DNA of 64,000 nt from Nitrososphaerota archaeon (lineage in GTDB: Archaea > Thermoproteota > Nitrososphaeria > Conexivisphaerales > UBA164): the NCBI GenBank assembly GCA_023381255.1, contig JAMCTX010000002.1, forward strand, positions 1-64,000. The letters run 5' to 3'. Made by a program: the position numbers and the translations under genes. A model generated the notes under the pieces. It was not told the origin of the DNA, searched no databases, and saw only the letters and a list, made by a program, of their open reading frames with translations. Positions 3,510 to 46,902 of the stretch are shown piece by piece. The number at the start of each line of letters is the position of its first letter. Position 1 is the first letter of the stretch.

Positions 3510-3802
3510 TGCTTGACCAGCCTCACAAAGTCGTCAAGGTCAATCATGACTATATTCTTTTTTGTGCCCGCTTCGTGAAATATGACCATCGGGATTTTGT
3601 TTTCTTCTTTTGCCTTTGCCACCGTTTCATTGTATGTTTTGTAGAACGGTATCTGCTTCCGGTACTTGATTTCGATAAAGAATTTATTATGCAGCGTGTC
3701 CGACTTTGTCATTCTGGAGTTGGAGCCGCTCAACGGTGTCCTTGTGGTGCCGAAAGCCTTGGCGATCCGCCGCTCCAGTTGTTTCCACGCCGGGTTTGTC
3801 AT
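3506..3802 (-). CDS. PD-(D/E)xK nuclease, Holliday-junction-resolvase-like
   Basis: 98 residues. An N-terminal helix with Glu10 (WKQLERRIAKAFG) is followed by GSNSRMTKSD with Asp35 and the strand FFIEIKYRK with Glu44 and Lys46. This E...D...ExK order is the active-site pattern of the PD-(D/E)xK superfamily as in small archaeal and viral Holliday junction resolvases. Likely cleaves branched or linear DNA during replication or recombination of the element. Assignment rests on motif pattern only. Confidence 0.6.
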   Translation of the reverse strand: MTNPAWKQLERRIAKAFGTTRTPLSGSNSRMTKSDTLHNKFFIEIKYRKQIPFYKTYNETVAKAKEENKIPMVIFHEAGTKKNIVMIDLDDFVRLVKQ

Positions 3803-4500
3803 TCTTGCACCACCATCGGGAACTCCCTGATTCGCAAATCTTTTGGAAAATCATTCAGGTCGCCCCCAGGTCTTGCGCCACCAAGCTGCTTCATCCAGAC
3901 CGCAACGCCCTGCTCCTTTGCCTGCCTGACGATTGAGCGCGCCCATTCGAGCCTCATTGGCCTGTGCCTCGGTCCCGATTCACCGCCGATGATTACGAGA
4001 TTTATACCCGTAAGGTTCAAATCCCCAAGCTCCCCAAGCAGCGGCTCAAAGGATACGAACTTTGTCCTTGCCGATGTTGAAACCAGGCTGTCAATCCTTT
4101 TCAGGTACAAAGGCAGCTCCACGGACACGCCAAGCCAGAGGTTTTGCGGGAACGGTTCCCCTATCCATGTTTCATAGGCAACCATCCTTTCGGCGCGCTT
4201 TGTCAGCACCTGGAATGTCACGTCGGGCCTGCTCGCTATCAACCCCATTGTTTCCTTCACGAATTCAAATGAGACATACTCGTGAAACAGGTCTGACATG
4301 CTGTTCACAAATACCTTTGCTCCTGCCGGCAGCTTTGAAACCTGCCCAAGCCTTTCCGGGTGTATCTGCACGTCAAAGCTCCTGCCGAACCTCCTTGACC
4401 ACGTCTCTGCATAGCAATTCTGACAGCCAGGCGACACCTTGCTGCAACCGGTAACCGGGTTCCATGTTATGTCCGTCCATGAAATGCCTGTTTTGTTCAT
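3799..4500 (-). CDS. DUF5131 (phage Gp37/Gp68-like) protein, radical-SAM-like Cys cluster
   Basis: 233 residues starting MNKTGISWTD, followed by the conserved NPVTGC...PGCQNCYAE region with Cys19, Cys26 and Cys29, a motif typical of DUF5131 proteins common in phages. These resemble radical SAM/spore photoproduct-lyase-like TIM barrels. Further family-typical segments are FVNSMSDLFHE, LTKRAERM, LWLGVSVE, FVSFEPLLGE and VIIGGESG. The biochemical role is unknown. Part of the 4-base-overlap operon. Confidence 0.85.
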   Translation of the reverse strand: MNKTGISWTDITWNPVTGCSKVSPGCQNCYAETWSRRFGRSFDVQIHPERLGQVSKLPAGAKVFVNSMSDLFHEYVSFEFVKETMGLIASRPDVTFQVLTKRAERMVAYETWIGEPFPQNLWLGVSVELPLYLKRIDSLVSTSARTKFVSFEPLLGELGDLNLTGINLVIIGGESGPRHRPMRLEWARSIVRQAKEQGVAVWMKQLGGARPGGDLNDFPKDLRIREFPMVVQE

Positions 4501-11382: not shown

Positions 11383-11714
11383 TGTTCAATTGCCTCCTTT
11401 CTTACGATGAATATTCTCTGGGCTCCTATCGCCCCAAGCACATTCACGCTTCCCCTTCCCCGATATTTTTCAAAGTCGTGGCTGTATTTGCTTGCGAATA
11501 AACAAAAATCGTCGGTATCCAAGCCGGGATTGTTTTTGAAATAATCGGCGACACTCCTGATTAAGCCCCTGAATTCATCAACTTTCAATTTCATTTCAAT
11601 TGGCAGTGTCAGCACTATTCTTGTTGATGCTTCATAAAGCAGGAGATACGGCACTGCTGACTGCTTCATTGTGGTTTGGTTCGTTAATTTATTTTCGATT
11701 TCCGATAACTTCAT
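11379..11714 (-). CDS. Hypothetical protein, 111 aa
   Basis: Starts with a helix (MKLSEIENKLTNQ), then alternating strands and helices (YLLLYEASTRIVLTLPIEMK). No motif recognised. It is the gene immediately after the Tas-like gene, with a 4-base overlap, so it would be translationally coupled to it and is a candidate accessory factor. Confidence 0.45.
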   Translation of the reverse strand: MKLSEIENKLTNQTTMKQSAVPYLLLYEASTRIVLTLPIEMKLKVDEFRGLIRSVADYFKNNPGLDTDDFCLFASKYSHDFEKYRGRGSVNVLGAIGAQRIFIVRKEAIEQ

Positions 11715-12562
11715 TGCTTATTCTCCTCCTTGGTGTGGTTCAGGATCGCAACCGCGTATGGTTCATCCGGCGGCTGCCCGTTGACTTTACGCCAGTTTTC
11801 GTAATAGTCTGCGAGGAAGCGTTTAATCATCTTGCGCATAGCCCTCCTGTGCGCATGGAGCGGTGGCGACTTGCACCTGCCTACAATCCAGGCCTTTTGT
11901 TCCTTATCCCAGATTATTTCTGTGTAATTGGGGTTTTCGTGCATTTCAAGCACGCGCTTCTTCTCTTCGTCGTATATCTTCCTGTACGGCTGTGTCCTCT
12001 TTTTTAGCAGTGAATCGCCGACTTTCCAGCAAAAAGTCCTGAAATCGGGGTTGTAGTTGATTCTTCTGCCTTTCATCGGTTTTACGGTGTGCCCGTCAAC
12101 CGGCGCAAGACCGGCGTATTTCCATATCGAGCTCGCATGGTGGACTTTGGTCATGTCGATGTAGTATATCAGGCCCGCAGACAGGACAGGCCCAAGCCCC
12201 TTGATATATTTAAGGTATTGCTGGTAAATCGGCACCGTGCCGATCCAGTCCATCATAAGCGGCTTGTATTTCTCCTCGAATTTCTTCTCCTCTTTTGCCA
12301 CGTTGAGCAGGTTGTTGATGTATTCGTATTCCTCGGCTGCTATCTTGCCCTCGTTCTTGAGCCTCAGCAATATCCCAGGCAGCTTTTTGTCGGCGTACTT
12401 GTCGGCAAAGTCCTTTTCGTCCTTCTTCTTCTCAACTTCACGCAGGCTCTTACCTTCAGCCCTTGCCTTGATTATCGCCCTTATCCTGTTCATTGAGCGT
12501 ATGCGCAGGTCCTGGTGGTCATAGTATGACTGTATTGCGAGGTAACCTTCATCGTCCAGCAA
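11711..12562 (-). CDS. Tas-like protein: Nop / IS110 Transposase_20-like domain, no nuclease domain
   Basis: 283 residues. The first 110 are helical and charged, with coiled-coil character (about 35-100). Residues 118-200 hold a helix-hairpin-helix (GLGPVLSAGLI, 122-132) followed by SSIWKYAGLAP and KGRRINYNPDF. That is the arrangement of the C-terminal domain of IS110 transposases, which is related to the Nop domain of box C/D proteins. No N-terminal DEDD/RuvC domain is present, and the IS110 catalytic Ser region reads GHTVKP, so it should not be an active transposase. A helical basic C-terminus follows. The gene lies 30 bases from a tandem interspaced array, as tas genes do. The TTG start is set by a strong Shine-Dalgarno. 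Confidence 0.7.
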   Translation of the reverse strand: MLDDEGYLAIQSYYDHQDLRIRSMNRIRAIIKARAEGKSLREVEKKKDEKDFADKYADKKLPGILLRLKNEGKIAAEEYEYINNLLNVAKEEKKFEEKYKPLMMDWIGTVPIYQQYLKYIKGLGPVLSAGLIYYIDMTKVHHASSIWKYAGLAPVDGHTVKPMKGRRINYNPDFRTFCWKVGDSLLKKRTQPYRKIYDEEKKRVLEMHENPNYTEIIWDKEQKAWIVGRCKSPPLHAHRRAMRKMIKRFLADYYENWRKVNGQPPDEPYAVAILNHTKEENKQ

Positions 12563-12565
12563 GGC

Positions 12566-13645
12566 TCAGGCACCTCCTGCGCACGGAAAGAATGGGTATC
12601 TTTTGCGATTTGGCTCGCTACGTCTCGCTGGATATCTCCGGTCTTTTGGCTCGCTAGGGCTATCTGGATATCTGACATTTGATGGCTCGCTAGGCCTTAA
12701 TGGGTATCTAGCGCATTCTGGCTCGCTGGTGAGATTTGGGTAACTCGCATTTAGTGGCTCGCTAAATGTACTTGGGTATCTTTTTCGTTCAAGCTCGCTT
12801 CTGGAGAATGGATATCTTTCTGACTTTGGCTCGCTGTTTTTAGATGGATAGCTTACTATAATTGGCTCGCTAACTTCAGTTGGATATCTTTTCGTAAATG
12901 GCTCACTGATGCACAATGGGCATCTTTTTATTATTGGCTCGCTTGATTTTGCTGGGTATCTGGAGTTTGATGGCTCGCTAGTTATTGATGGATATCTTGC
13001 AAACATTGGCTCGCTAACTATTTTTGGGTATCTTGCGGTCCTTGGCTCGCTATTACCAAATGGGTACCTTACACACTCTGGCTCGCTGTTGACCCCTGGA
13101 TATCTCTTTTTTTTAGGCTCGCTATTTATCGCAGGGTATCTTGCAAGACCTGACCCGCTGAATGCAACTGGGCAACTTGGATCATACGGCTCGCTAACGA
13201 AATATGGGCATCTTTCATAAAATGGCTCGCTAGCCTTTAATGGGTATCTTCGATAACATGGCTCGCTTTCTATAATTGGGCATCTTTGGTCAATTGGCTC
13301 GCTATCTTTCAATGGATAACTTGCGGAGAGTGGCTCGCTAGGCGTATCTGGGTATCTTGCTTCATGTGGCTCGCTGACCGAGTTTGGGTAACTTTTGACA
13401 GTTAGCTCGCTACATAGATGGCTCGCTATGAGGCTGTGGGTATCTTCCCCGCAGTGGCTCGCTACTAACTGATGGGTATCTTTAGTTTTATGGCTCGCTT
13501 CATACAATTGGGTATCTTCTTCATAATGGCTCGCTATAATAGATTGGATGTCTTTTAGGTGATGACCCACTGGATAACATTGGGTATCTTTGCCTTTCTG
13601 GCCCGCTTCATACAATTGGGTATCTAACCCCTGTCCGCCATTCAT
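12566..13645 (-). CDS. Open frame across the array (12-residue repeat protein or incidental)
   Basis: A 359-codon frame runs through the whole array. The ATG overlaps the upstream stop by 4 bases (13642-13645) and the stop lies 3 bases before the Tas-like start. It reads x-ASH-x-DTQ type repeats for about 75 residues, then, after the 16-base step at 13403-13418, SEP-xxx-RYP-xxx repeats to the end. Frame openness over some 138 spacer codons suggests it may be translated, or that ribosome passage is needed. The boxes, however, persist across the frame change, so the peptide is unlikely to be the conserved product. Confidence 0.35.
   Translation of the reverse strand: MNGGQGLDTQLYEAGQKGKDTQCYPVGHHLKDIQSIIASHYEEDTQLYEASHKTKDTHQLVASHCGEDTHSLIASHLCSELTVKSYPNSVSEPHEARYPDTPSEPLSASYPLKDSEPIDQRCPIIESEPCYRRYPLKASEPFYERCPYFVSEPYDPSCPVAFSGSGLARYPAINSEPKKKRYPGVNSEPECVRYPFGNSEPRTARYPKIVSEPMFARYPSITSEPSNSRYPAKSSEPIIKRCPLCISEPFTKRYPTEVSEPIIVSYPSKNSEPKSERYPFSRSELERKRYPSTFSEPLNASYPNLTSEPECARYPLRPSEPSNVRYPDSPSEPKDRRYPARRSEPNRKRYPFFPCAGGA
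12571..12578 (-). promoter_or_regulatory. Strong Shine-Dalgarno deciding the TTG start of the Tas-like gene
   Basis: On the minus strand this reads AGGAGGTG, followed eight bases later by the TTG at 12562. Most other genes in the operon rely on start/stop overlaps. Here an independent ribosome site follows the array, so the protein does not depend on translation of the array. Confidence 0.65.
12593..13625 (-). repeat. TIGR-like tandem interspaced array: 58 nine-base boxes, 57 spacers
   Basis: Read on the plus strand, box A is TGGCTCGCT (21 of 29 copies exact) and box B is TGGGTATCT (12 of 29 exact, 6 more TGGATATCT). They alternate A-spacer-B-spacer. Box-to-box distance is 18 bases at 56 of 57 steps and 16 at one step (A at 13403 to A at 13419, where a B is missing). 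Spacers are 9 bases and essentially unrelated; one, TCATACAAT, occurs twice (13500 and 13608). The full unit of 36 bases with two 9-base spacers equals the published size of TIGR units and tigRNAs. Transcription with the operon would give the minus-strand forms AGCGAGCCA and AGATACCCA. Confidence 0.85.
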
Positions 13646-14292
13646 TGCTTTGCCCTCCTCCTCAGATATTTGTTATCGGTCGTGAATTCTTCCCCGCCGT
13701 GAATGTATTTTTTGTCCGGCGCGGTTTCAATCAGTGCTAATAGTGTCTCAACTTCAGGTATTTTTGATCCGTCCTTGTTAAGTGTGTAGGCCCATAAACT
13801 TCCGTCGTTGTTTTTGTTCCACTTGATACGGTTTATCATTTCGCCAATGTCGTCAGTTTCCTGCCTTTGCTCTATAAATTCCTCAGCGGACACTTCACCG
13901 CCACCTACCAGGTTGCTTATGGCCCTGTTAATTGCCCTTGTAGCGGCTTTGGTCTCTATATTGTGGACAGTTGCGGCAATGGCTCCTGAAAATTCGCTGC
14001 TGTCGCACGCCCCTATCTCTTCAGAAACCCTTCCCGATGGGGCGGTTGCCTTTGCCCTTGCCCTGACTATGTATATTCCATCCCGCGTTTCGTGTTCGAT
14101 TGAAGTTATTTCCACAGAAATGTTAAAAGCGAGGGCGATCTTGCGCCAGCCCGACCTCTTGATGTAGCGTTTTCCCGAAATGGTCACCGTGTCGTTGTCG
14201 TCAAGCAGCCTGGTCTTGAGCTGCTGGAATGCCTGCATGCTTTCCACCGCTTGAGCTACGTTAGGCATTACAACCGCAATGTCGTCAGTCAA
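13642..14292 (-). CDS. Rad52/Erf-like single-strand annealing protein (tentative)
   Basis: 216 residues. The segment SGKRYIKRSGWRKIALAFNI, the strand-rich region with RVSEEIGACDSSEF, and ETKAATRAINRAISNLVGGGEVSAEE resemble annealing proteins of viruses and archaeal elements. In these a beta-hairpin core precedes a helix with conserved A-x-TRAxxRA. The likely role is recombination-dependent replication of the element. It directly precedes the array, with a 4-base overlap into the frame that crosses it. Confidence 0.55.
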   Translation of the reverse strand: MTDDIAVVMPNVAQAVESMQAFQQLKTRLLDDNDTVTISGKRYIKRSGWRKIALAFNISVEITSIEHETRDGIYIVRARAKATAPSGRVSEEIGACDSSEFSGAIAATVHNIETKAATRAINRAISNLVGGGEVSAEEFIEQRQETDDIGEMINRIKWNKNNDGSLWAYTLNKDGSKIPEVETLLALIETAPDKKYIHGGEEFTTDNKYLRRRAKQ

Positions 14293-14669
14293 TATGGCTC
14301 CCTCATTTCTTTTAGCTGCATGAATGCCAATGTTTCATCCTGCTCCCTGACCTTTTGCTCAAGCTCCTTTTGCCTTTGTTTGATTTCAAGATATTCTTCC
14401 TTTGACACTATCACGAACCCGTCATTCATCCTGTATAAGTACCCGTTCCTGCCCGCAAGCAACTTGCTGATTTCACCGGGATGCAAAGTCGCCACCTCAA
14501 CTGTCTCCCTTACTCCGCGCGCAAAATAGGACCTGGTGAAGCGTATCATGCCGTCATCTTCTACCTTGTATGCGCTAACCCAGTAGCGCATGTTTCTATT
14601 CGTTATAACGGTGTGATAAAAGTGCTTTTGCTGTGATTCCCATTTTTCCTTGAATTCATCAAGGTTCAT
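14289..14669 (-). CDS. Hypothetical protein with C-terminal coiled coil, 126 aa
   Basis: N-terminal aromatic-rich domain (KHFYHTVITNRNMRYWVSAY), then strands, then a Glu/Gln-rich coiled coil (KQRQKELEQKVREQDETL). No family recognised. 4-base overlaps on both sides. Confidence 0.5.
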   Translation of the reverse strand: MNLDEFKEKWESQQKHFYHTVITNRNMRYWVSAYKVEDDGMIRFTRSYFARGVRETVEVATLHPGEISKLLAGRNGYLYRMNDGFVIVSKEEYLEIKQRQKELEQKVREQDETLAFMQLKEMREPY

Positions 14670-14815
14670 GCCGCGGACCTCTCCAGGAGTAGCTTTATGC
14701 TATTGACCTTTTCCTCGATCCTTGCAAGGTCCTTGATGACCTGGCTTCTCAGCTCTGCATTTTCCTGCTTCAGCCTCCTCAGCTCTGCCTTTTCAATTAG
14801 TGATTGTTGTGCCAT
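14666..14815 (-). CDS. Small coiled-coil protein, 49 aa
   Basis: A short gene read from the minus strand: it starts MAQQSLIEKAELRRLKQENA and ends KLLLERSAA, a continuous heptad-rich helix. Its stop overlaps the next ATG (14666-14669), and its ATG directly follows the TAA of the upstream gene (14816-14818). Function unknown; probably an oligomerisation or partner peptide. Confidence 0.55.
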   Translation of the reverse strand: MAQQSLIEKAELRRLKQENAELRSQVIKDLARIEEKVNSIKLLLERSAA

Positions 14816-16175: not shown

Positions 16176-17312
16176 TCATTTTTCCACTTTTTTCTTTAAT
16201 TCCGCAATGTCCTTGAGAATGTCTGCCAACTTTTCAAGCAAATCCGCGTTAGGGATTGCGGACTTTGCAATTTCCTCCGGGTTCAGCGGCGACCCGCATT
16301 TGCCACAATATCTTTGCCCCGGCGTGTTCTCCGCGCCGCACCTGGGGCATTTCAGGGGCACGAATTCGGGTGCCTTGGGCTTGGTTTCCTTCCCCTTGTA
16401 GATTGCCGCCAGCTTGTCGTCAAGGTCCGCGCTTGCCATGTGGACATACCTGGAAGGTGTATCGCTGCCGGAAGCCCAGCCGTAGCGCAGCCTCATTTCA
16501 TACTCGGTCAGATAACGGGCGTTCGCGGTTGCGCTTGAATGCCTGAAAAGGTGCGGATAAATCCGTTTCTTTACCCCAGCCCTTTTCGCTGTCCTTTTCA
16601 GCATGACCCTGAGCTTCACGTATGACAGGTGCTTCCCCGGCAGCGATTCCCAGAGCCACGCATCGGGGTTCCCTTTCCCTGGGTGCTGGTCAAGCCATTG
16701 CGAAAGCAGCGGCACCGAGGTTATCAGCCTTTCCGTCCTGCCCCCGGTCTTGCCTGAAACGCGTATTTTGGCTCCCATGTCGTCAAAACTCACATCCCCT
16801 ATTTTTGCCGGCAAAATCTCGCCTATCCTGAACCCGCCGTCGTACAAGACCGCTATTATCGCCTTGTCTCTCGCCGTTTTTGCGCTGCTTATCAACGCCT
16901 TCACCTCATCCTCCGTGAGTATTTCCGGCTCCTTTGTTTCGTTTCGCTTGACACCGGTCCTGATCCACTTTACGATGTCGGGGTAGGGCGCGCTCTTTTC
17001 TATGCTCCCCGTAAGCAGCCAGCGGTAGAATATCTTAACGCCCCTGAGAGTCGTATCCCTTGTCCACGGGGTCTTTGTTTCCGTCATTTTCATGACAAAC
17101 CTTTCTAAGTCATCCTTTGTTGCATCGCGCAGCGGCCTGCCGAGAAACCGGGAAAGTATGATCAGCGTTTCAATGTGCCTGTATATCCTGCTGATTGAGT
17201 AATTGGACTTTTGCAGCGTCCTGACAAACTGCACGGCATCGGGGTCAAGCTTCAGCATCTCCCTTTCAACCTTGGTCTTGAAATAATAAATGTCGCTCAT
17301 TATGCTTGCCAT
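16176..17312 (-). CDS. Tyrosine recombinase/integrase with C-terminal zinc ribbon
   Basis: 378 residues. An N-terminal SAM-like core-binding domain covers about 20-105. The catalytic domain carries Arg162 (GGFRIGE), Lys188 (SGKTGGR), His254 and Arg257 (HLFRHS), Trp279 in the second His/Trp position, and the nucleophile Tyr289 (SRYVHM). All expected catalytic positions are present, so it should be active. A zinc ribbon follows, with Cys322/325 and Cys336/339, as in several archaeal XerC/D-like integrases. It lies at the right end of the element and probably integrates or excises it. Uninterrupted, so not the split SSV type. Confidence 0.93.
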   Translation of the reverse strand: MASIMSDIYYFKTKVEREMLKLDPDAVQFVRTLQKSNYSISRIYRHIETLIILSRFLGRPLRDATKDDLERFVMKMTETKTPWTRDTTLRGVKIFYRWLLTGSIEKSAPYPDIVKWIRTGVKRNETKEPEILTEDEVKALISSAKTARDKAIIAVLYDGGFRIGEILPAKIGDVSFDDMGAKIRVSGKTGGRTERLITSVPLLSQWLDQHPGKGNPDAWLWESLPGKHLSYVKLRVMLKRTAKRAGVKKRIYPHLFRHSSATANARYLTEYEMRLRYGWASGSDTPSRYVHMASADLDDKLAAIYKGKETKPKAPEFVPLKCPRCGAENTPGQRYCGKCGSPLNPEEIAKSAIPNADLLEKLADILKDIAELKKKVEK

Positions 17313-45534: not shown

Positions 45535-46902
45535 TTATTTTTCAGTTTCAGACATAATTTTCTCAGCAGCTTCAATGCCAGATACCCCGCTTGAGGCCAC
45601 GCCAACGCCGTTGTAAGGCGCTCCAGCGAGATACATGTTCGGTGGTACAGTTTCGTTTATTTTTTTAATTAATTCGGAATGGCCTATTGCGTAAACGGGA
45701 AGGGCTGAATCCCAGACCTTTACAGAGGATTTTTCAGGATAGCCTTCTGTTATTCCTATTTGAGCCAATTCCTCGGCGGCGCTTTGCGTATAATATTCCT
45801 CCGGTTTTAAAGGATCCCTGTTTATAAAACACCTTATCAGTTCATGGTCTTTCATCCTGGCATAGCTCCATTTGCGGCTCATCAGAGTGCACCCGCGAAG
45901 TTTAAACCCAGAATTGCTTGGCACCAAAAAGCCAGAAAACTTTTCGTGCAATCTGACAGAAGCCTCTTTGTAAACCAGATTTGCAGTGGTTATGCCCGAA
46001 TATTTTATAGACGACAGCAAAAAGCTTAGATTTTTATCAATGTCACGCACAAGTTTCGAGGCAACATAAGAAGGGACGGCCATGATCAGCCTGCTGCATT
46101 TTATTCTATCTGTCTCGGTGTTTATATTCCAGTTGCCGTTCATATATTCAACGCTTTTAACTGCCATGCCGGTAATTATTTTAACCCCGTTTTTTTCAGC
46201 ATACTTTCTGAGCATTTCGACAATGCCACGCAGGCCATTTAAAGTGGATGTTATTTTGAAGTGCCTGGTTCCCCGTTTCCTGCTAAAGTAAATTGAAAGG
46301 CTCTTGCCATCCTTTGCAACCTGGTAGATGTATGGAACATAAGACCTGGAGCTTATTATCGAAATATCTGCTCCCATTATGCCCCCAAACAGGGGGTCAA
46401 TCACGTTTTTTGTGAATTCCGACCCGAATTTTTTTTCGAATAATGCTCTGATGCTCAGATCGTCTGAAAGGCCGTTTATTTTAAAAAACGGCTCTAGCAT
46501 GGCGCGGGCATATCCTTTTGGCGAAAGAAGACCTGAAGTTACAAAATTATATATATCGTTCAAATTAAATGACGGTATGCCGGTTATCAGCGATTCTGGG
46601 AATCTCCTTAGCCTGTTTCTGGAATATATATAAAATCTTGACGTTTCCGGGTATATTAAACTGTCAAATACATTCGCACGAGTTAAAAGCTCGTCAAATT
46701 TTTTATAACCGGTAATCAATTCGTCAGGGCCTTCCTCAGTCAGGGTTTCTGTTAAGCTCAAAGTCCTGATTTTGCCGCCGAGCTCGTTTTGGGATTCCAG
46801 TAACAGGATTTTTCTGCCAGCTTCAGCTAGCTTTATTGAAGCCGACAGGCCTGATATCCCGCCGCCTATTACTACAGCATCATATTTCTGATTGCCCAGC
46901 AC
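45535..46902 (-). CDS. hemY: Protoporphyrinogen oxidase, HemY type
   Basis: 455 residues. N-terminal FAD site GGGISGLSASIKLAEAG with ESQNELGGKIRT, and C-terminal YLAGAPYNGVGVASSGVSGIEAAE, the flavin/substrate end typical of HemY-type oxidases. Makes protoporphyrin IX (or coproporphyrin) in heme synthesis. Other flavin amine oxidases are less likely. A 34-base palindrome lies 65 bases upstream of its start. Confidence 0.82.
   Translation of the reverse strand: MLGNQKYDAVVIGGGISGLSASIKLAEAGRKILLLESQNELGGKIRTLSLTETLTEEGPDELITGYKKFDELLTRANVFDSLIYPETSRFYIYSRNRLRRFPESLITGIPSFNLNDIYNFVTSGLLSPKGYARAMLEPFFKINGLSDDLSIRALFEKKFGSEFTKNVIDPLFGGIMGADISIISSRSYVPYIYQVAKDGKSLSIYFSRKRGTRHFKITSTLNGLRGIVEMLRKYAEKNGVKIITGMAVKSVEYMNGNWNINTETDRIKCSRLIMAVPSYVASKLVRDIDKNLSFLLSSIKYSGITTANLVYKEASVRLHEKFSGFLVPSNSGFKLRGCTLMSRKWSYARMKDHELIRCFINRDPLKPEEYYTQSAAEELAQIGITEGYPEKSSVKVWDSALPVYAIGHSELIKKINETVPPNMYLAGAPYNGVGVASSGVSGIEAAEKIMSETEK

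Follow-up and report, generated by a model that had tools for sequence, protein, structure and literature searches.

A TIGR-TasA locus of a likely archaeal mobile element with its guide array inside a stop-free frame in phase with tas

TIGR-Tas systems, built around a TasA, TasR or TasH protein, are known from phages, archaeal viruses, archaea and CPR bacteria, and their dual-repeat arrays give rise to 36-nt tigRNAs that target DNA through tandem spacers (Faure et al., 2025; PMC12045711). In the main text of that report the arrays mostly have between 5 and 15 units, as a rule with a terminator after them, and are treated as guide-RNA arrays; the repeats of TasR systems take the form UG...CCA, and for TasA both interference between elements and help to integrases are discussed as possibilities (PMC12045711). 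Among known effectors whose own mRNA supplies the guide, TnpB comes nearest as a precedent (PMC10278001). An earlier note on the DNA analysed here, made from the sequence alone, had held that a TIGR-Tas system would be new or little described in archaeal elements. Because such systems have already been published from archaea and archaeal viruses (PMC12045711), that view does not stand, and the locus adds a member to TIGR-TasA rather than a new kind. No description of arrays lying within a reading frame was found in the literature searched, which included, by term, the main text of PMC12045711 and the review PMC12385481.

The locus lies on the minus strand of a 64-kb window, the whole stretch of DNA that was analysed. 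Its tas gene (11711–12562, with a TTG start at 12562) encodes a 283-aa Nop-domain protein of the TasA type without a nuclease domain, which scores 168.6 bits against the NCBIfam TIGR_Tas family (cut-off 100) and 19.5 bits against NCBIfam IS110 (cut-off 140). The sole Pfam match above cut-off is PF02371 (Transposase_20; 24.2 bits, cut-off 21.3), and Pfam finds no nuclease family in the protein, neither HNH nor RuvC, as in TasA, nor DEDD, in agreement with the Nop/IS110 (Transposase_20)-like, nuclease-free domain that the earlier note had described. The AlphaFold model of the protein (pLDDT 90) opens directly with a long helix and finds its best solved matches in TasR and TasH, both of which clearly outscore IS621, itself also a match. 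The check suggested in that note, an HMM and structure search, hence points to the Tas family and the TasR/TasH fold and not to IS110, and the proposed nuclease-less, TasA-like TIGR-Tas member is upheld by the TIGR_Tas score together with the closeness of the model to TasR and TasH. A decayed IS110 transposase lying beside an unrelated array would account for the lone Transposase_20 match and for the structural resemblance to IS621, but this reading can practically be discounted against the IS110 and TIGR_Tas scores, the position of IS621 clearly behind TasR and TasH, and the presence of 36-nt arrays at 103 of 133 Tas loci (gathered by Tas similarity, some of them near-copies), where they lie within 2.5 kb in 167 segments. 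Neither the N-terminal DEDD domain nor the IS110-level score that membership of IS110 entails was found. What the window holds is thus a genuine TIGR-Tas system, nuclease-less and of the TasA type.

The array (12593–13625, minus strand) lies directly upstream of tas and is co-oriented with it, as had been noted before, and comprises 58 boxes and 57 spacers in 36-nt units, with 29 boxes of the AGCGAGCCA type and 29 of the AGATACCCA type alternating from 13625 to 12593. The spacers are 9 nt long in 56 of 57 cases and 7 nt in one; of the 57 box-to-box steps, 56 measure 18 nt and the remaining one 16 nt, in line with the earlier account of 36-base units made of two 9-base boxes and two 9-base spacers. 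Exact copies number 21 for AGCGAGCCA and 12 for AGATACCCA, and neither sequence has an exact copy outside the array on either strand of the window. Both repeats begin with AG and end with CCA, the shared box D and box C motifs required of TIGR-Tas, and as two alternating repeats with spacers of about 9 nt adjoining tas they match the description of a TIGR array, with its repeats of 8–12 nt. The TGCG after the final spacer, interpreted as a truncated 3' edge, and the array layout of the Salicola phage suggest that AGCGAGCCA is the edge box and AGATACCCA the loop box. At 13403–13427 (minus strand) an edge box is followed by a 7-nt spacer and another edge box, the loop box and about 20 nt being gone; this loss, at 13427–13411, puts the boxes beyond it into another reading phase, and the frame remains open. 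A point missed in the earlier note is that the array is itself a stop-free open reading frame (ORF), running from 13645 to 12566.

This array ORF (12566–13645, minus strand) starts with ATG, encodes 359 aa and is stop-free across the whole array, the other two minus-strand frames holding 20 and 31 stops. When spacer letters were permuted with the boxes fixed, in 20,000 trials each, 13.4 stops were expected from the pooled shuffle and 13.1 from the shuffle within spacers, and 0 stops were seen in 0 of 20,000 trials of either. The open frame is one continuous frame on both sides of the loss of about 20 nt, with [0,6,6] and [0,14,26] stops per frame on the two sides and 3.6 (P = 0.019) and 9.4 (0/4,000) stops expected in the open one. 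Under a stricter null, in which only columns were permuted between units so that the base bias of each position was preserved, the window's 22-unit segment gave P = 0.001 (0.0005 in a second run) and its 5-unit segment only P = 0.085. In the encoded peptide the boxes read D-T-Q and A-S-H before 13411, and R-Y-P and S-E-P after it. The box consensus is identical in both reading phases; it follows that the boxes are kept as nucleotide sequence and that the open frame is kept as well.

Putative translation signals lie at both ends of the frame. A ribosome-binding-site-like sequence, GGAGGAGGG, which would presumably serve the array ORF, precedes its ATG (13653–13661, minus strand), and the start and the upstream gene's stop share 4 nt, ATGA (13642–13645, minus strand). 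This upstream gene, which belongs to the same gene row (13642–14292, minus strand), encodes 216 aa and matches phrog_22961 (E 5e-8). A second such sequence, AGGAGGTG, lies within the 3' end of the array ORF ahead of the tas TTG (12571–12578, minus strand), where it may serve tas. Only a lone TGA (12566–12568, minus strand) separates the array ORF from tas in the same frame (TGA GCC TTG), so that tas starts three bases beyond the end of the array ORF. The idea that the locus is embedded in a replication operon was not borne out, no replication family scoring above cut-off in the operon genes scanned; for the 666-aa and 216-aa operon proteins no useful solved-structure match was found. With the array in a stop-free frame in phase with tas, one transcript is likely to be both guide precursor and messenger. 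The reading preferred here, at a probability of roughly 0.78, is therefore that of a TIGR-TasA system whose guide array lies inside a stop-free frame in phase with tas, and in which a single transcript probably serves as guide precursor and as translated messenger.

The search for related arrays on other archaeal elements, which had been suggested at the outset, has now been run and yields further cases. In L004, on a viral contig, and L061, from a Hadarchaeum, array and Tas share one uninterrupted frame, and L062, from a Bathyarchaeota member, carries its array in the tas frame with 3 stops. The L004 frame has a TTG after GGAGGAGGGG immediately ahead of the array and no ATG, GTG or TTG between the array and the conserved YYDVQD core; with no start codon in this interval, read-through of the array is the best explanation for how the L004 Tas is made. 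The model of this fused protein shows an N-terminal tail with a pLDDT of about 42–62 to residue 80, a core from about residue 95 and a second low-confidence tail at the C-terminus. In L061 a GTG follows GGAGGTGAT ahead of the array and a second GTG (1470) lies behind it, so that read-through is not forced; its array is open, but only 1.5 stops are expected. The L062 array frame ends in TGA, followed by AAG and the ATG of tas in the same frame, and holds 3 stops where 8.5 are expected (P = 0.016), the box spacing shifting by one base three times. Ribosome-binding-site-like sequences lie ahead of the array in the window, L004 and L061. Among other relatives, the array of L005, downstream of tas, is not open, L007 has downstream box-like repeats, also not open, below the detector threshold, no array was detected in L006, and stops and shifts interrupt the array of L011. 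L117–L119, which were left out of the counts, likewise showed an array-like stretch in frame with tas. A match was found in 2 of 398 genomes of the window's own phylum (its own and G379), in 1 of 28 genomes of the L061 phylum and in 1 of 256 genomes of the L062 class, in the last two cases the known locus. With P0001 as sole query no viral relative was found; plasmids yielded no relatives, and phages three records that represent two phages.

The 3' end of the L004 ORF (5666–5710) contains a further exact loop-edge-loop series of boxes with 9-nt spacers, in a codon phase different from that of its 5' array and hence encoding different peptides; AGCG lies a further 9 nt beyond, as a truncated edge would give. 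These boxes bear on the reading in which the ORF encodes a functional protein of 12-residue repeats, the boxes are merely codons and no guides are made. Such a protein would agree with the open frame, its start and stop and the ribosome-binding-site-like sequence ahead of it, and with position 6 of the loop box, which varies as a silent TAC/TAT change in the R-Y-P part. It is nonetheless very improbable given that the same nucleotides are conserved in two phases with different peptides, both in the window and within one L004 ORF, that the spacers vary freely, that the edge box equals a box of the validated Salicola phage array and that a Tas protein adjoins the array. Spacer codon usage is only marginally gene-like (P = 0.05 against stop-free shuffles), and is not read as a sign of selection on the peptide.

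Protein sequences extend the set of loci at which the preferred reading, a guide array in phase with tas, might apply. The 121 Tas-family proteins examined comprise a first six, one of them encoded in the window, and a further 115 from the 120 that were listed out of 238 found. Of the 121, 28 contain runs of at least 4 alternating boxes with a 6-residue period, and neither shuffled nor reversed controls contain any; by place, 29 runs are N-terminal, 5 C-terminal and 2 internal, in two phases, the 121 proteins not all being independent. A looser box rule with a threshold of six finds N-terminal arrays in 22 of the 121, 16 in the S-E-P and 6 in the A-S-Q phase, and the reversed controls reach at most 5. 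The S-E-P phase has the lowest number of expected stops (0.43 per unit); the third phase, represented by one run of 3 boxes in the 121 proteins, is hardly used at all, in keeping with the 0.89 stops per unit that it would bring. P0148 and P0141 carry box runs of differing phase at their two ends, P0172 has a long C-terminal run, P0188 combines an N-terminal run with one of 17 boxes within the Tas domain, and P0165 has 4 boxes within that domain. All are predicted proteins; P0131 is the L004 protein itself and P0130 is close to that of L061, the others of the 28 were seen as protein sequence alone, and the viral contigs scanned gave no DNA of P0188 or P0148. Fusions seen as protein alone depend on where gene callers place the start, a placement biased towards open tails, and the statistical claim accordingly rests on the window, the proteins being used for recurrence.

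Control arrays bear on whether the frame could be open by chance, in an otherwise ordinary TIGR-TasA locus whose long ORF, like the fused proteins, would be an artefact of gene calling. In SpTIGR, the locus of Salicola phage CGphi29 (L069) that has been used in experiments, none of the three forward frames of the array is free of stops, and their numbers are not clearly below expectation. Eight of 66 distinct tas-anchored segments of at least 7 units have a stop-free frame (L004, L017, L028, L037, L038, L061, L067 and the window), and since five of these eight lie outside the archaeal set, short arrays can be open by chance; L028 (P = 0.003–0.004) may be a further open-array case. A box-pattern scan matched 111 stretches, which reduce to 47 distinct box-matched viral arrays of at least 7 units, one of them with a stop-free frame, on L004's own contig. 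Chance opening thus finds some footing in short viral arrays that are likewise stop-free in one frame, and in the low stop expectation of the S-E-P phase, but it appears improbable in the face of 0 stops against 13 expected over 57 spacers, a frame kept through a change of phase, and the ribosome-binding-site-like sequences ahead of three of the arrays; furthermore, the runs inside the Tas domain of P0188 and P0165 are no start-site artefact.

The tree places the rows labelled as array-in-frame in two supported groups (the window and P0004; P0005, L004, L061 and L062), with support of 99/86 including P0003 and 100/99 including L011. Both groups fall inside a larger clade of 12 rows, itself supported (96/85), which is completed by L005, L006, L007 and P0006, the last a protein only; wherever a host is named or inferred for a member of this clade, it is archaeal. 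The array-in-frame label needs 3 changes on this tree, with L062 scored as array-in-frame despite its stops and P0003, for which there is no upstream DNA, scored as lacking it; L024, which aligned poorly, was left out of the structure alignment and kept in the tree as a long branch. It appears an even bet that in this group of archaeal elements the coding sequence of the effector doubles as a guide library, with units in frame before, inside or behind the domain, a transcript that is either translated or cut, and a spacer repertoire subject both to targeting and to a rule against stops.

Under the preferred reading of a transcript that is both messenger and guide precursor, ribosomes would cross the array, the RNA would be cut into 36-nt tigRNAs and the guides would lead Tas to DNA. 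Ribosomes would load ahead of the array and read through it; in the window they would terminate at the TGA beside tas and restart on tas, and in the relatives reading through the array would yield a Tas with a long disordered tail. As Tas accumulates, it may bind the box pairs of its own transcript, which would be cut into guides, and this cutting would remove that copy as a messenger. Since cutting would destroy the messenger, Tas would limit its own production, and any one transcript would yield either Tas or guides, which would build a balance into the system. The loaded complex, lacking a nuclease, might act by binding and bending DNA, for instance blocking the transcription or replication of a rival element or assisting the element's integrase. 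Alternatively, the frame might be kept only so that ribosomes shield the operon from premature termination of transcription, or couple translation to that of tas, guides and Tas not competing for the transcript. The gene row continues with tight overlaps on both sides of the array, no minus-strand terminator-like site was found in 11600–14700, and factor-dependent termination exists in archaea (reported in PMC11616081), all of which would suit shielding or coupling. Since it would leave the box runs inside or behind the Tas domain unexplained, this alternative is considered rather unlikely. It overlaps the best explanation in all but the feedback. The canonical layout of an untranslated array, with no selected frame and a terminator at its end, which is no defining trait of TIGR-Tas, is not that of the window.

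The TIGR-Tas locus is likely to sit on a mobile element of an archaeon. The window encodes a radical-SAM protein that shares 86% identity with one from a Conexivisphaerales archaeon, and a tyrosine integrase with a C-terminal zinc ribbon (16176–17312, minus strand) lies close to the array locus. Targets were sought with 28 units (edge-A-loop-B), joining spacer B to the reverse-complemented spacer A with gaps of 0–2. The best match in the window, 17/18 at 46758–46775, falls in a gene that we take to be protoporphyrinogen-oxidase-like and is suggestive at best, an equally good match being found in 1 of 27 re-paired rotation controls and in 18 of 150 trials of random re-pairing, in which original pairs could remain. 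Other host DNA, 213.5 kb in all, held no match with two or fewer mismatches, the controls averaging 1.2 matches with two; the 585 kb of Tas loci gave 8 two-mismatch matches against 6.25 in the control, which is no excess, and a less stringent scan of the window, in which every pair of adjacent spacers was tried in either order, gave no clear excess at 2 or 3 mismatches. No convincing target of the array spacers is claimed in any of these three sets.

Guide arrays have been thought of as non-coding, and here one stretch of DNA seems to be held to two codes. Two codes would give TIGR-Tas a possible control circuit, setting the level of Tas against that of the guides, and the arrangement may let effector and guides control each other, which raises a question for the bench: whether making guides destroys the Tas messenger. 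They would also narrow the choice of spacers that can persist. What look like translated guide arrays are already present in protein databases, labelled as Tas or hypothetical proteins, and array searches confined to intergenic DNA would miss such systems.

Compared with known systems, the locus differs from the IS110/IS621 bridge-RNA recombinases in having an array instead of a bridge RNA, and no DEDD family was found in it. Box C/D sRNPs, built on Nop5, use guides to direct RNA methylation; the window differs from them in carrying a compact array beside the effector. With TnpB and its omegaRNA (Nety et al., 2023; PMC10278001) it shares an effector on a mobile element and, in TnpB as described there, the processing of the effector's own mRNA into a guide RNA, which in the window would be the presumed fate of the transcript; it departs from that system in having a multi-guide array within, or in phase with, the coding sequence. 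The closest counterpart is TIGR-TasA as described in the main text of PMC12045711, which likewise pairs a solo Nop-domain protein with a dual-repeat array of 9-nt spacers and 36-nt units. The AGCGAGCCA box is common to the window and the Salicola phage CGphi29 array (SpTIGR; PMC12045711), and the repeats of that phage array are of the same AG...CCA form. What sets the window apart from described TIGR-TasA systems is the lack of any terminator-like site on the minus strand of 11600–14700, the size of the array, with its 58 boxes, and a stop-free frame that runs in phase with tas.

Outside the archaeal clade of the Tas tree, three arrays on viral contigs retrieved by Tas similarity (L028, 1667-2290; L038, 5852-6259; L093, 5789-6565) each show one frame with few or no stops, and are possible further cases of an array lying in an open frame. 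In the cyanophage Microcystis phage Mvi-JY20 (L070; PP438412.1, 19095-24550), a 36-nt array is located behind the gene for a Tas relative annotated as "hypothetical protein", and stops occur in every forward frame of this array. Two relatives known as predicted proteins carry translated box runs within the Tas domain itself, at residues 296-406 (P0188) and 229-249 (P0165).

The Bathyarchaeota array (L062) contains a box-spacer-box-spacer stretch in two copies, at about 110-153 and 541-584, that differ by a single base, suggesting array growth through segment duplication.

The target scan returned a match at window positions 46758-46775, identical at 17 of 18 bases, in the predicted geometry, to the unit with its edge box starting at 12979. 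This stretch lies in a gene that we take to encode a protoporphyrinogen-oxidase-like protein. Because one of the 27 re-paired spacer controls yielded an equally good match, its assignment as a target of this unit is suggestive at best.

The gene row of the window's array includes a DUF5131/phrog_2045 gene (3799-4500), and a tyrosine integrase carrying a zinc ribbon at its C-terminus is encoded near the array locus (16176-17312). Elsewhere in the same genome (G000), two IS110-type genes (C3:99649-99906 and C21:37191-37448) match Transposase_20 at 89 bits each, scoring far above the Tas protein.
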